This document shows positions 46,500 to 49,526 of a stretch of 64,000 nt of DNA, piece by piece. The stretch is taken from NCBI GenBank assembly GCA_001899065.1, contig MKUZ01000017.1:62001-126000 (forward strand). The letters are read 5' to 3'. Within the stretch, counting starts at the first letter, position 1; every line of letters starts with the position of its first letter. A program made the translations under genes and the position numbers. The DNA is from Devosia sp. 66-22 (GTDB lineage: Bacteria > Pseudomonadota > Alphaproteobacteria > Rhizobiales > Devosiaceae). The notes beneath the pieces were generated by a model that saw only the letters and a program-made list of their open reading frames with translations, was not told where the DNA came from and searched no databases.

Positions 46500-47348
46500 T
46501 CAGCCCATCGGCAGCGTACCGAGCACGCTGACCAGCGCGACAACCACGACGCCGATGGCCATCTCGGCGAGTGCCGACCGATAGAGCGGCACCGCGCCGT
46601 CGCGTGCGAAGCGCGGCAACAGCACGTAGCGATTGGCGAGCGCCAGCCCGACCATCAGCAGCACGAGCCCGATCTTGGCTGCGAGCAGAGCCTGCCAGGG
46701 CGAGGCGAGGTCGGTGGGCGGTCCGCCGATCAGCAGCCACGTATTGACGAGCCCCGTCGCCAGCGTCACCGCTACCGCCAGGTGGCCGAGGCCGGAGAAA
46801 CGGCGGAGCGCCGCCTCGGCATCGGCGCCCAGCCGCATGCTGAGGGCCAGCGGCAGGAGCGAGCCCAGCCAGAACCCCGCCGCCACCAGGTGCGCGATCT
46901 GGCTGGCCCGGCCGACGCCGCCGGTCCAGCCTCCCGTGGCGGCGAGATGGCCGACGAGGCCCAGCACCGCCAGCATCGCGCCGGAGAGCACCGCGAGCGC
47001 CCACCATCGCGGCCACGCCGCAATCGCCGCGACCAGCAGCACGTCGAGCGCCAGCACGGCGATCCACGTGCGGCCGAACTGCGTCCCGGTGAGGACGAGC
47101 TGCAGCGTGGCGGGATCGACAGCGTCGGCCCAGCCGTCGCCCATCGTCGCTGCCGTCACGCCGAGCCAGATCAGCGATGTCCCCACGAGGATGCAGATAC
47201 AGGCGATCGCCAGCCTGCGCAGATGCCTGGTGAGGTTGCCCGGCATCCCCGGCGGCGCGATCGCAGCGGCAAACACGGCGATGCCGAAGAGCTGGATGGC
47301 CGCCGCGTAGTGCAGGACGCGTGCCGCGGCGAGGACAAGCTCCGGCAA
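46500..47348 (-). CDS. copD: Copper resistance D family membrane protein
   Basis: A 282-aa membrane protein with eight predicted helices of the CopD family (copper import or tolerance with CopC). Conserved blocks include LHYAAAIQLFGIAVF near the start, LVGHLAATGGWTGGVGRASQIAHLVAAGFWLGSLLPL in the middle, and AKIGLVLLMVGLALANRYVLLP. The histidines and methionines in the middle block are the likely copper contacts. It is the last gene of the cop/ECF module, 4 bp after copC. Confidence 0.93.
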   Translation of the reverse strand: MPELVLAAARVLHYAAAIQLFGIAVFAAAIAPPGMPGNLTRHLRRLAIACICILVGTSLIWLGVTAATMGDGWADAVDPATLQLVLTGTQFGRTWIAVLALDVLLVAAIAAWPRWWALAVLSGAMLAVLGLVGHLAATGGWTGGVGRASQIAHLVAAGFWLGSLLPLALSMRLGADAEAALRRFSGLGHLAVAVTLATGLVNTWLLIGGPPTDLASPWQALLAAKIGLVLLMVGLALANRYVLLPRFARDGAVPLYRSALAEMAIGVVVVALVSVLGTLPMG

Positions 47349-47352
47349 TCGC

Positions 47353-47733
47353 TTACTTCACGTCGAACGAATAGGTGCCGCTCACCTTGTGGCCGTCGGC
47401 CGCGACTGCCGCCCAGTCGACGGTGTAGCTGCCGTCCGGCAGTCCAGCTGGCAGCGTGACGATCACGCTCGCGCCGTTCGCAGGGTCAATGGCAAAGCTC
47501 GTCCCGCCGACCGCCAGCCCGTCGGGTCCGACAATCTCGATTTTGGAGAAGGCCGGCTCGATGCTCTCCGAGAAGGTGAGCACAAGCGCTTCTGGCATCA
47601 CCTCGACCACGGCATCGGCGGCAGGAACGGACGACACCAGTTCCGCATGGGCCAGCGACGGCAGGGTCTGCGCGCCGACACAGAAGATCGCGAGCGCGGC
47701 GGCCCGGGCCAGGTTCCGGATGATGGTGTGCAT
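47353..47733 (-). CDS. copC: Periplasmic copper-binding protein CopC
   Basis: A 126-aa periplasmic protein with a signal peptide ending near SLAHA. The mature N-terminal histidine (H29), together with D113 and H115 in AADGHKVSG, forms the Cu(II) site of CopC/YobA proteins. The methionine-rich Cu(I) site of the classic plasmid CopC is absent, as in most chromosomal members. The frame is open to 47829, but the signal peptide begins at 47733, 11 bp after the sigma factor stop. It probably hands copper to CopD. Confidence 0.93.
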   Translation of the reverse strand: MHTIIRNLARAAALAIFCVGAQTLPSLAHAELVSSVPAADAVVEVMPEALVLTFSESIEPAFSKIEIVGPDGLAVGGTSFAIDPANGASVIVTLPAGLPDGSYTVDWAAVAADGHKVSGTYSFDVK

Positions 47734-47744
47734 TGCCAGTCTCT

Positions 47745-48485
47745 CTAGTCGTGCCCGGCGGCGACGGGTTCGGGCGGTCCATTGTGCGTGCGCAGTTCTA
47801 CCAGAACACGGTCGGCCATGTGCACACATCTTTGGCCGTCGAAGGGAAACAGCGATGTGAAGGCGCCGTTGAGCTTCTGCTCGATCGTCTCGCGCATCAG
47901 CCGGCGCGCCCGATGCAGCCGCGTCCGCACCGTCTCGGGCTTGATGTCGAGCGTGGCTGCCGTCTCCTCGACGCTCAGCCCCTGCACGTCGCGCAGCACG
48001 AACACCGAGCGGAAGGGGACGGGCAGGGCGTCGACCGCCTGCTCGAGGAAAGTCCGGATCTCCTGGCGTGACATTTCGGTCTCCGGATCGAGTTGCGGCT
48101 GGATGGAGGGAAACTGGATGATCTGTGCGCTCTGGCCGCGTTCGATGTCGATCTGCTCGACCCCTGTCGTCGGCCGCCGCCGCCGCAGCCGCTCGGTCGC
48201 CTCGTTGACGGTGATGCGCGTGAGCCAGGTGGTGAATTCGGCATCGCCGCGGAAGCCGTCGAGGTGCGTGAACGCCTTCACATAGCTTGCCTGCACCACG
48301 TCTTCGGCCTCGGCATCGTTGTGCACGATGGCGCGGGCGACGCGGAACAGCCGCTGGTTGTGGCGTCGGACAAGCGTGCGGATCGCCGCCTCGTCCTGGC
48401 CGCGCGCCATTTCGACGAGCACCCTGTCGCCATGGCCGGCGAGGTCGGCGCGGGGAGGGGAAACGGTGAGCCGTGTCGTTGTCAT
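47745..48485 (-). CDS. ECF-family RNA polymerase sigma factor
   Basis: A 246-aa extracytoplasmic-function sigma factor: region 2 (LVRRHNQRLFRVARAIVHNDAEAEDVVQASYVKAF, DAEFTTWLTRITVNEATERLRRR) and region 4 (LPVPFRSVFVLRDVQGLSVEETAATLDIKPETVRTRLHRARRLM). A C-terminal tail of about 45 residues contains FPFDGQRCVHMADRVL, with Cys, His and Met in a row of potential metal ligands. No anti-sigma gene is adjacent. It lies between the cupredoxin gene and copC; matching ECF-type promoters precede it and the DUF4142 gene, so it probably controls the whole module. Confidence 0.94.
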   Translation of the reverse strand: MTTTRLTVSPPRADLAGHGDRVLVEMARGQDEAAIRTLVRRHNQRLFRVARAIVHNDAEAEDVVQASYVKAFTHLDGFRGDAEFTTWLTRITVNEATERLRRRRPTTGVEQIDIERGQSAQIIQFPSIQPQLDPETEMSRQEIRTFLEQAVDALPVPFRSVFVLRDVQGLSVEETAATLDIKPETVRTRLHRARRLMRETIEQKLNGAFTSLFPFDGQRCVHMADRVLVELRTHNGPPEPVAAGHD

Positions 48486-48513
48486 GATCGCCTACTCTAT
48501 GCCTACCGCATTG

Positions 48514-48538
48514 GACGGCGAAGCGCGCAATACGTTCC
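48514..48538 (-). promoter_or_regulatory. ECF-type promoter P2 before the sigma factor-copC-copD genes
   Basis: On the minus strand GGAAC (48538-48534), 16 bases, then CGTC (48517-48514) and CAATG. The transcript would begin about 20 bp before the sigma factor ATG at 48485. The same elements with identical spacing precede the DUF4142 gene, which suggests autoregulation by this sigma factor. Confidence 0.7.
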
Positions 48539-48550
48539 CGACAGGCTGCG

Positions 48551-48579
48551 GGGCGCCGGAACGTGCCGTTCCGGCGCCC
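48551..48579 (-). terminator. Hairpin between the cupredoxin gene and promoter P2
   Basis: A perfect 12-bp stem (48551-48562 with 48568-48579, GGGCGCCGGAAC/GTTCCGGCGCCC) with a 5-base loop lies 6 bp after the cupredoxin stop. It has no T-run, so it may attenuate readthrough or protect the upstream message. It sits 12 bp before the GGAAC element of P2. Confidence 0.55.
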
Positions 48580-48585
48580 GTCGGC

Positions 48586-48912
48586 CTACGGCGCGATGAC
48601 GAGGGTGCCCGTCATCCCGGGGTGGAACTTGCAGAAGAAGTCGAGACTTCCCACCGCGCCCACCACCATGCGGACCTCGGTTCCGGCCGGCAGGTCGACG
48701 TCGAAGCTCTTGTCGCGGGCCGTCGCCGAGTGGCGGAAGATGTCGTTGTTCTGCCAGATGACCGTATCGCCGGCATGGAGCTCGGCCGGCACGGGGCCGA
48801 ACTTCATCTTGTCGATCACGATCGTGTAGTCGGCGGCAAAAGCGGGCATCGCGGCGAGCGCGGTGCCGGCCACCAGCACGCCGGTCAGGGCCAGCTTGAT
48901 CAGGGCGGTCAT
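48586..48912 (-). CDS. Cupredoxin (type-1 blue copper protein)
   Basis: A 108-aa periplasmic protein with a signal peptide (MTALIKLALTGVLVAGTALAAMPAFAA) and a plastocyanin/amicyanin-like domain. All four type-1 copper ligands are visible: H61 (IFRHSATA), C94, H97 and M100 (DFFCKFHPGM). It should bind one copper and shuttle electrons or buffer copper. The frame is open to 48954, but the signal peptide starts at 48912 behind GGAGCC. It is downstream of the DUF4142 gene and upstream of the sigma factor. Confidence 0.94.
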   Translation of the reverse strand: MTALIKLALTGVLVAGTALAAMPAFAADYTIVIDKMKFGPVPAELHAGDTVIWQNNDIFRHSATARDKSFDVDLPAGTEVRMVVGAVGSLDFFCKFHPGMTGTLVIAP

Positions 48913-48922
48913 CTCAAGGCTC

Positions 48923-49441
48923 CTACTGGAACTTTGCCGCGACCATCTCGGCATGATGCTGGTGCTCGGTGAACAGCGTCAGGCCGGTCTTGAGTAGCTC
49001 CTTGAACTCGGCGTTCTGCGCCGAGGGGATCAGCACCGAGCTCAGCGCTCCGTTGACCGTGGCGTGGTAGGCGACCTCGTTGGCGATGTAGGCCTTGTCG
49101 AACGCGGCGCCATCGAGCTTGTCGAGCTCGGCCAGCTTGTCCGCCGCCGCCTGGCTCAGCGCCTGGCTGGTCGGATTGTCTTCGGGCGTGACCCCGAGCT
49201 TCGTCACCAGCGCCAGCGCCTGGTCGTTCACCGCCTTGTGGTCGGCGGCCATCAGCGTGGCGAAGGCGATGATGTCCGCGTTGGTGCTCTTCTTGATCGC
49301 CTGTTCGGCCGCCACAACGTCGATCTGCCCGGCCGTGTAGGCGATGTGGGCGATCTGCGGATCGGTGGGCGCGTCGGCGGCGGCGCCGACGCCGGCCATG
49401 CCGAAAGCGAGGAGCGCTGCAAGCACTGTAGTTCTGATCAT
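48923..49441 (-). CDS. DUF4142 exported protein
   Basis: A 172-aa exported protein: signal peptide (MIRTTVLAALLAFGMAGVGAAA) followed by a helical ferritin-like DUF4142 domain (IKKSTNADIIAFATLMAADHKAVND..., AYIANEVAYHATVNGAL, TLFTEHQHHAEMVAAKF). Histidines recur at positions suited to metal binding (DHKA, YHAT, EHQHHAE). The molecular function of DUF4142 is not known. It is the first gene of the ECF-regulated cupredoxin/copper module and lies 60 bp downstream of a GGAAC-N16-CGTC promoter. Confidence 0.92.
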   Translation of the reverse strand: MIRTTVLAALLAFGMAGVGAAADAPTDPQIAHIAYTAGQIDVVAAEQAIKKSTNADIIAFATLMAADHKAVNDQALALVTKLGVTPEDNPTSQALSQAAADKLAELDKLDGAAFDKAYIANEVAYHATVNGALSSVLIPSAQNAEFKELLKTGLTLFTEHQHHAEMVAAKFQ

Positions 49442-49501
49442 GTCGATCTCCTGGGAACGGAAGGCAACGGGACATCTGCGCCCCGCTGGTTCGCTCCATT
49501 C

Positions 49502-49526
49502 GACGGTGACCGGCCGGAAATGTTCC
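49502..49526 (-). promoter_or_regulatory. ECF-type promoter P1 before DUF4142-cupredoxin
   Basis: On the minus strand GGAAC (49526-49522), 16 bases, then CGTC (49505-49502) and GAATG. It lies 60 bp upstream of the DUF4142 ATG and matches P2 at both elements, in spacing and in the AATG after the -10. Confidence 0.7.

Follow-up and report, generated by a model that had tools for sequence, protein, structure and literature searches.

A predicted ECF29 (RpoE8-type) sigma factor module with exported copper proteins in Devosia sp. 66-22

Results

Gene content of the locus

We analyzed a 64-kb stretch of the Devosia sp. 66-22 genome (64,000 nucleotides of contig MKUZ01000017.1; hereafter the window), in which positions 46500–49526 carry five minus-strand genes encoding a DUF4142 protein, a type-1 cupredoxin, an extracytoplasmic function (ECF) sigma factor, CopC and CopD. 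A first-pass annotation had proposed this gene set from the letters alone, and both the open reading frames (ORFs) and their Pfam matches bore it out. The genes and the two promoters predicted for them are as follows.

49497–49526, minus strand: predicted ECF29-type promoter of the DUF4142–cupredoxin pair, GGAAC-N16-CGTCGAATG (motif; same place in relatives)
48923–49441, minus strand: exported ferritin-like DUF4142 protein, 172 aa (Pfam PF13628, 7.6e-33)
48586–48912, minus strand: type-1 copper protein (cupredoxin), 108 aa (PF13473, Cupredoxin_1, 7.8e-8; ligands H61, C94, H97 and M100)
48509–48538, minus strand: predicted ECF29-type promoter of sigma–copC–copD, GGAAC-N16-CGTCCAATG (motif; before sigma in many relatives)
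47745–48485, minus strand: ECF sigma factor of the RpoE8/ECF29 family, 246 aa (Sigma70_r2 and r4_2; NF008888, 283 bits; C-terminal extension with a single Cys, Cys219)
47353–47733, minus strand: CopC periplasmic copper-binding protein, 126 aa (PF04234, 7.6e-25; NF033814 above cut-off)
46500–47348, minus strand: CopD copper membrane protein, 282 aa (PF05425, 1.1e-22; NF033808 above cut-off)

Only 11 nt separate the sigma gene from copC and 4 nt separate copC from copD, and the CopC and CopD of the window both exceed the cut-offs of curated domain models. Inspection of the locus by ORFs and Pfam revealed no anti-sigma gene adjoining the sigma gene, in agreement with the first-pass annotation.

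The sigma factor belongs to the RpoE8 family

The window sigma is a member of NCBIfam NF008888, the equivalog family of Sinorhizobium meliloti RpoE8 (cut-off, 204 bits). RpoE8 was assigned to ECF29 by ECFfinder (PMC6180224; the papers cited here by PMC number were available in part, and statements about them refer to those parts), and ECF29 membership of the window sigma denotes membership in this NCBIfam family, not a score against ECF group models. Among 299 genomes of the phylum, 21 gave matches above the family cut-off, the lowest at 235 bits, while the next best genome reached 167 bits with a match that stopped short of the C-terminal tail, at position 205 of 231. The S. meliloti 1021 gene on pSymB (323 bits) was identified as rpoE8 because its two upstream motifs match the sequences printed for rpoE8 and SMb20593 (locus L056). 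The window sigma is 46% identical over 212 residues to the RpoE8 gene product of S. meliloti R28, in whose annotated record the two neighbors of the rpoE8 gene encode a DUF4142 protein and a cupredoxin.

In the available text of PMC6180224, RpoE8 of ECF29 has a GGGAAC/CATCCAA promoter, a blue-copper neighbor and no known anti-sigma factor; its control is described as a mystery, and no targets emerged for the only member studied. A review table places ECF29 among the groups with regulatory extensions, in the class "others," and ECF groups lacking anti-sigma factors are well known (PMC8999054). The window displays the same features, namely the sigma family, the promoter, the exported DUF4142 and blue copper neighbors, the absence of an adjacent anti-sigma gene and a C-terminal extension. 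The family, promoter type and core neighbors of the window sigma are already in print, and the earlier suggestion of an undescribed regulon does not hold. Our searches of the open-licence literature (ECF sigma with DUF4142 or with cupredoxin and CopC; ECF29; DUF4142 with copper) brought up no paper with an evident link between ECF29 and copper.

The closest described system, RpoE8–SMb20593–AmcY of S. meliloti, shares with the window the equivalog family, the DUF4142 and cupredoxin genes, the lack of a known anti-sigma and the promoter type, which stands there before sigma and before DUF4142 (PMC6180224), but it differs in having the sigma gene first and no copC–copD, besides the divergence of the sigma itself. 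The window's DUF4142–cupredoxin–sigma order is shared by plasmids of Rhizobium sp. N731, R. etli CIAT 652 and R. leguminosarum WSM1325, with sigma identities of 55–57%; these loci differ in having the motif before DUF4142 only and, again, in lacking copC–copD. A DUF488 gene lies directly upstream of DUF4142–cupredoxin–sigma on the same strand in the Rhizobium plasmid loci L051 and L053, and a hypothetical gene in L052. We also considered ECF26, since RpoE4 of that group controls an exported blue copper protein, pseudoazurin, together with SorT (PMC3511301). RpoE4, however, has a putative adjoining anti-sigma gene, a sulfite response and the promoter consensus GGAATA/GT (PMC3511301), whereas no COG5662-type anti-sigma gene adjoins the window sigma, and ECF26 was rejected in favor of RpoE8/ECF29 on the NF008888 match and the ECFfinder class.

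Conservation of the module among relatives

We compared 126 sigma loci, comprising the window, 9 plasmid stretches (selected from 637 matching records), 10 close-relative stretches, the best 80 of 484 named-genome loci and 26 further loci; some are the same genome twice (e.g., L063 and L081), so that the loci are not independent. Within 4.5 kb of sigma, DUF4142 and cupredoxin genes occurred together in 79 loci (window counted), and a TTHB210-like gene with a cupredoxin gene in 24. DUF4142 alone was found in 2 loci, a TTHB210-like gene alone in 1, a cupredoxin alone in 1 and none of them in 19. Thus 103 of 126 loci share a conserved core of sigma, cupredoxin and one of two exported proteins, DUF4142 or a TTHB210-like protein.

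The exported TTHB210-like protein replaces DUF4142 in 25 loci (including L083:4026–4442 and L065:6256–6879), almost invariably accompanied by a cupredoxin and in most cases preceded by the family promoter. PF18197 was present in the two of these proteins that were scanned (L083 and L065), and comparison with solved TTHB210 (3vg8) gave an E-value of 2.4e-23. TTHB210 is under a sigma-E system in Thermus, on which our literature search returned no paper. On a tree of 97 sigma rows whose bootstrap was not settled, gene content needed 14 changes (minimum, 2; shuffled mean, 35.8), suggesting that cassettes have been swapped while the sigma and its promoter stayed.

Two further arrangements were noted. 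In L267 (genome G481), a CopC–CopD pair adjoins a different sigma, 31% identical, possibly another sigma–CopCD pairing. In L091:4431–5684, an Amaricoccus metagenome bin, a single stop-free open frame spans cupredoxin and sigma; we rejected it as a fusion, since the case rests on one bin and an ATG of the sigma's own follows GAGGAGGA.

A common promoter element precedes module genes

The first-pass annotation had also claimed two matched promoters unlikely to have arisen by chance, and this was confirmed for the full motif: the window contains exactly two copies of GGAAC-N16-CGTC(C/G)AATG, each upstream of a module gene, and none of 100 shuffles of the window gave any. Both sites match the published ECF29 form GGGAAC/GCATCCAA, with G for A in the –10 element and, once, G for C. 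An antisense ORF overlapping the promoter site at 49526 was taken as spurious. The short form GGAAC-N16-CGTC, which had been proposed for a genome scan, is weak evidence by itself. It occurs 6 times in the window versus 0.77 expected, a count reached by 1 of 100 shuffles, and its 84 genome-wide sites versus 206 for the reversed control led us to reject it as a regulon marker. With GGAAC-N16-NRTCSAA, 17 sites were found in the whole genome (reversed pattern, 25). The module's two sites stand 26 and 58 nt ahead of a same-strand start, and the remaining 15 fall within open frames according to a crude gene call (L236 and L243 less clearly so). The regulon in this genome may be the module alone.

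At the loci of the family, the roughly 350 bases preceding DUF4142 contained a loose form of the motif in 66 of 70 cases, those preceding sigma in 58 of 100 and those preceding cupredoxin in 3 of 84; of 2000 windows drawn at random from these loci, 92 contained it. The strict motif precedes the TTHB210-like gene in 17 of 25 loci, and near-matches are visible in several more. No motif was found before sigma in the Rhizobium-type order, in which sigma follows cupredoxin; the window is unusual in combining this order with a separate sigma promoter. The recurrence of one element before the cassette, the sigma gene or both supports autoregulation, as the first-pass annotation proposed, insofar as it can be predicted from such sites.

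The C-terminal tail carries one invariant cysteine

Besides the window sigma, the alignment comprised 96 of 119 usable rows; near-copies were left out, and rows that were shorter than 190 aa, identical or stop-containing were dropped, including L069, which has a broken tail. Cys219 was invariant in all 97 rows. In a 90-row set without plasmid rows, Cys219 was present in 90, Gly216 in 89, Phe214 in 87, Arg218 in 86, Met222 in 39 and His221 in 6, and Cys219 was the only cysteine in 71 of the 90 rows trimmed to the domain. According to an AlphaFold model, residues 217–234 form a helix behind region 4 (mean pLDDT, 88).

The tail residues RCVHM had been put forward as a Cys–His–Met copper or redox sensor. 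A CorE-like mechanism of this kind, in which these residues chelate copper and switch the sigma on, would suit a sigma that has a C-terminal extension and no adjacent anti-sigma gene, and CorE, an ECF sigma of Myxococcus, indeed senses metal and has a Cys-rich extension (PMC8999054). CorE-type sigmas (former ECF44 and ECF238) resemble the window sigma in lacking an anti-sigma, in their Cys-bearing extension and in their copper context, but belong to another group and carry a Cys-rich domain with a linker CXC motif (PMC8999054), whereas the only Cys of the window sigma lies in a short helix, so that a CXC motif is impossible. RCVHM is family sequence in which the Cys is invariant, the His rare and the Met present in under half of the rows. 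We therefore rejected it as a Cys–His–Met copper site and consider a CorE-like tail highly improbable.

Exported proteins and candidate targets outside the module

The type-1 ligands H61, C94, H97 and M100 that the first-pass annotation had named in the cupredoxin are invariant in 32 of 32 rows (the window and 31 of 101). In DUF4142, Met64, Asp67, His68, Glu122, His126, His160 and His163 are invariant across the window row and 32 rows taken from 77, 33 in all. A Foldseek search with the AlphaFold model of DUF4142 (mean pLDDT, 90.5) placed CopM at ranks 1–3 (best E-value, 1.5e-3, none below 0.001; TM-scores, 0.67/0.77), DUF305 proteins being also alike, and a profile search again gave CopM first (E-value, 0.02). 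These two weak searches agree in suggesting that the predicted fold is most like CopM. The family is not restricted to copper, one DUF4142 member being part of a lanthanide metallophore cluster (PMC11317620).

The family motif was found 54–56 nt before a PCuAC copper-chaperone gene in three genomes, G314, G163 and G095 (loci L328:2756–5540, L329 and L330), termed Mesorhizobium-like from their tree neighbors. Behind the motif and PCuAC lie a DUF1775 gene and a CopC–CopD fusion in G314 (L328) and a CopC–CopD fusion in G095 (L330), while the contig of G163 ends there. All 8 tested genomes of this genus have PCuAC; the intact motif precedes it in 3 of the 5 that also have the sigma and in none of the 3 that lack it, and a damaged copy occupies the same position in G091 and G111, which lack the sigma, and in G211, which has it. 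These positions are suggestive of PCuAC as a trans target of an RpoE8-type sigma. The claimed copper or redox role thus gained some support on its copper side, from the CopM-like fold and from the motif before PCuAC with a CopC–CopD fusion.

A second recurrent neighbor is folE, encoding GTP cyclohydrolase I, at 18 of the 126 sigma loci (including L113, L129, L207, L084, L087, L123 and L091). It lies within about 1.8 kb of sigma in all but one of them and has the motif within 300 nt upstream in 7 (random windows, 85 of 4000). The motif also precedes folE far from any sigma in three Bradyrhizobium-like genomes (L333–L335). No copper effect on the FolE enzyme was found in the literature searched, in which the available part of PMC10882993 treats zinc, cadmium and peroxide. 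The family promoter before PCuAC in the three Mesorhizobium-like genomes and folE as a recurrent neighbor are new here. Single motif sites also precede a globin gene in G257 and a Rieske reductase gene in G151; as isolated cases, these were taken as chance. In G003 and G010, four sites outside the module have one repeated sequence in common.

The module might instead answer general periplasmic or redox stress, with its copper proteins serving as electron carriers and copper not being the signal. The cupredoxin without copper transport genes at most loci, the alternative TTHB210-like cassette and the recurrence of folE would all be at home in such a module, but the CopM-like fold of DUF4142, CopC–CopD in the window and the motif–PCuAC arrangement with its CopC–CopD fusion speak for copper, and we regard this explanation as somewhat unlikely.

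Discussion

We lean, with modest confidence, toward the view that the locus is an autoregulated ECF29 (RpoE8-type) unit for periplasmic copper handling, in which copC–copD has been recruited behind the sigma gene. Sequence comparison establishes the sigma family, the promoter sites, the gene sets and their conservation; from these we infer that the window sigma transcribes the module, that copper serves as signal or cargo, and that the Cys-bearing C-terminal helix exerts control. In such a scheme, the activated sigma would transcribe its own gene together with copC–copD and, from the second promoter copy, the DUF4142–cupredoxin pair. Binding, buffering or delivery of copper would then fall to the exported products, namely the helical, CopM-like DUF4142 protein, the cupredoxin, CopC and CopD. 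Control may be exerted by the sigma's own C-terminal helix, whose one invariant Cys could serve metal, redox or partner binding in place of an adjacent anti-sigma. A sigma that amplifies itself on a copper-related signal, be it excess, shortage or a redox change, would thus make exported copper binders and, in the window's lineage, CopC–CopD as well. PCuAC and CopC–CopD point to copper delivery or uptake, while the DUF4142–cupredoxin pair would also fit buffering. Given the motif sites before PCuAC and the folE neighborhood, copper handling is a reasonable hypothesis for ECF29, although remote sites are no commoner than controls.

Several results weigh against this view. The five genes are not a conserved unit. 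Among the 126 loci, profiles built from the window's own proteins found CopC and CopD near sigma in the window only. In a Pfam search of the 22 other sigma-bearing genomes of the window's family, none had CopC beside sigma, though 8 encode it; and none of 20 CopC matches in 397 genomes, the window excepted, had an RpoE8-type sigma within 1.5 kb. Nor did CopC qualify as a trans target in relatives, where 10 copC loci had no strict motif before copC and one loose motif. By count, sites outside the module do not exceed chance, so that only where they lie can be informative. In 39 genomes, each of them with the sigma, GGAACYTT-N14/15-RTCCAA matched 31 times (22 at the module and 9 elsewhere; reversed pattern, 9), and in 397 genomes of the order the strict pattern matched 46 times versus about 39 for the reversed one. 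With other genera of the family of the Mesorhizobium-like genomes added, the motif preceded PCuAC in 3 of the 11 sigma-bearing genomes and in none of the 7 that lack the sigma. In one of the Bradyrhizobium-like genomes, G075, the motif precedes folE even though the sigma is absent. Finally, 126-fold overexpression of rpoE8 in S. meliloti induced no target, SMb20593 with its perfect motif included, and amcY was up in an rpoE8–SMb20593 deletion (PMC6180224).

Nothing else speaks as strongly against simple autoregulation as the overexpression result, which would be expected if the sigma needs a further signal but equally if it is inactive or used differently. This result also bears on two other modes of control. 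If the sigma were constitutively active and governed only by its own level, through simple autoregulation or another upstream regulator, the promoter directed at its own gene would be explained, but overexpressed RpoE8 was inactive and the Cys-bearing tail, invariant throughout the alignment, suggests control at the protein level, making this very unlikely. Alternatively, an unlinked anti-sigma might hold the sigma, with the tail being structural. Many ECF sigmas have an anti-sigma, and a signal-gated inhibitor could explain the silence of overexpressed RpoE8; a chromosomal anti-sigma, however, should be titrated by such an excess. In addition, the available text of PMC6180224 knows no anti-sigma for ECF29, none is annotated beside sigma in the plasmid relatives (whose tables are incomplete, with hypothetical proteins), and none appears among the top 25, by frequency, of the 76 Pfam families found in 66 flanking proteins. 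We consider an unlinked anti-sigma unlikely.

Extending the view of an autoregulated copper-handling unit to the whole family, one may tentatively picture ECF29 sigmas as one-component copper or copper-redox switches, in which an invariant and usually lone Cys in the C-terminal helix would replace the anti-sigma. The regulon, marked by GGGAACCTTT-N-CATCCAA, would join exported copper binders, PCuAC/CopCD delivery and GTP cyclohydrolase I in differing mixes across Alpha- and Gammaproteobacteria. This remains the more speculative part of our interpretation.

For ECF29, the comparison proposes copper as a candidate function, supplies a promoter that can be read and that marks further possible targets, and singles out one residue as a putative switch. 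It also suggests that copC–copD has been joined to the promoter of an RpoE8-type sigma twice, in cis in the window and in trans in the Mesorhizobium-like genomes.

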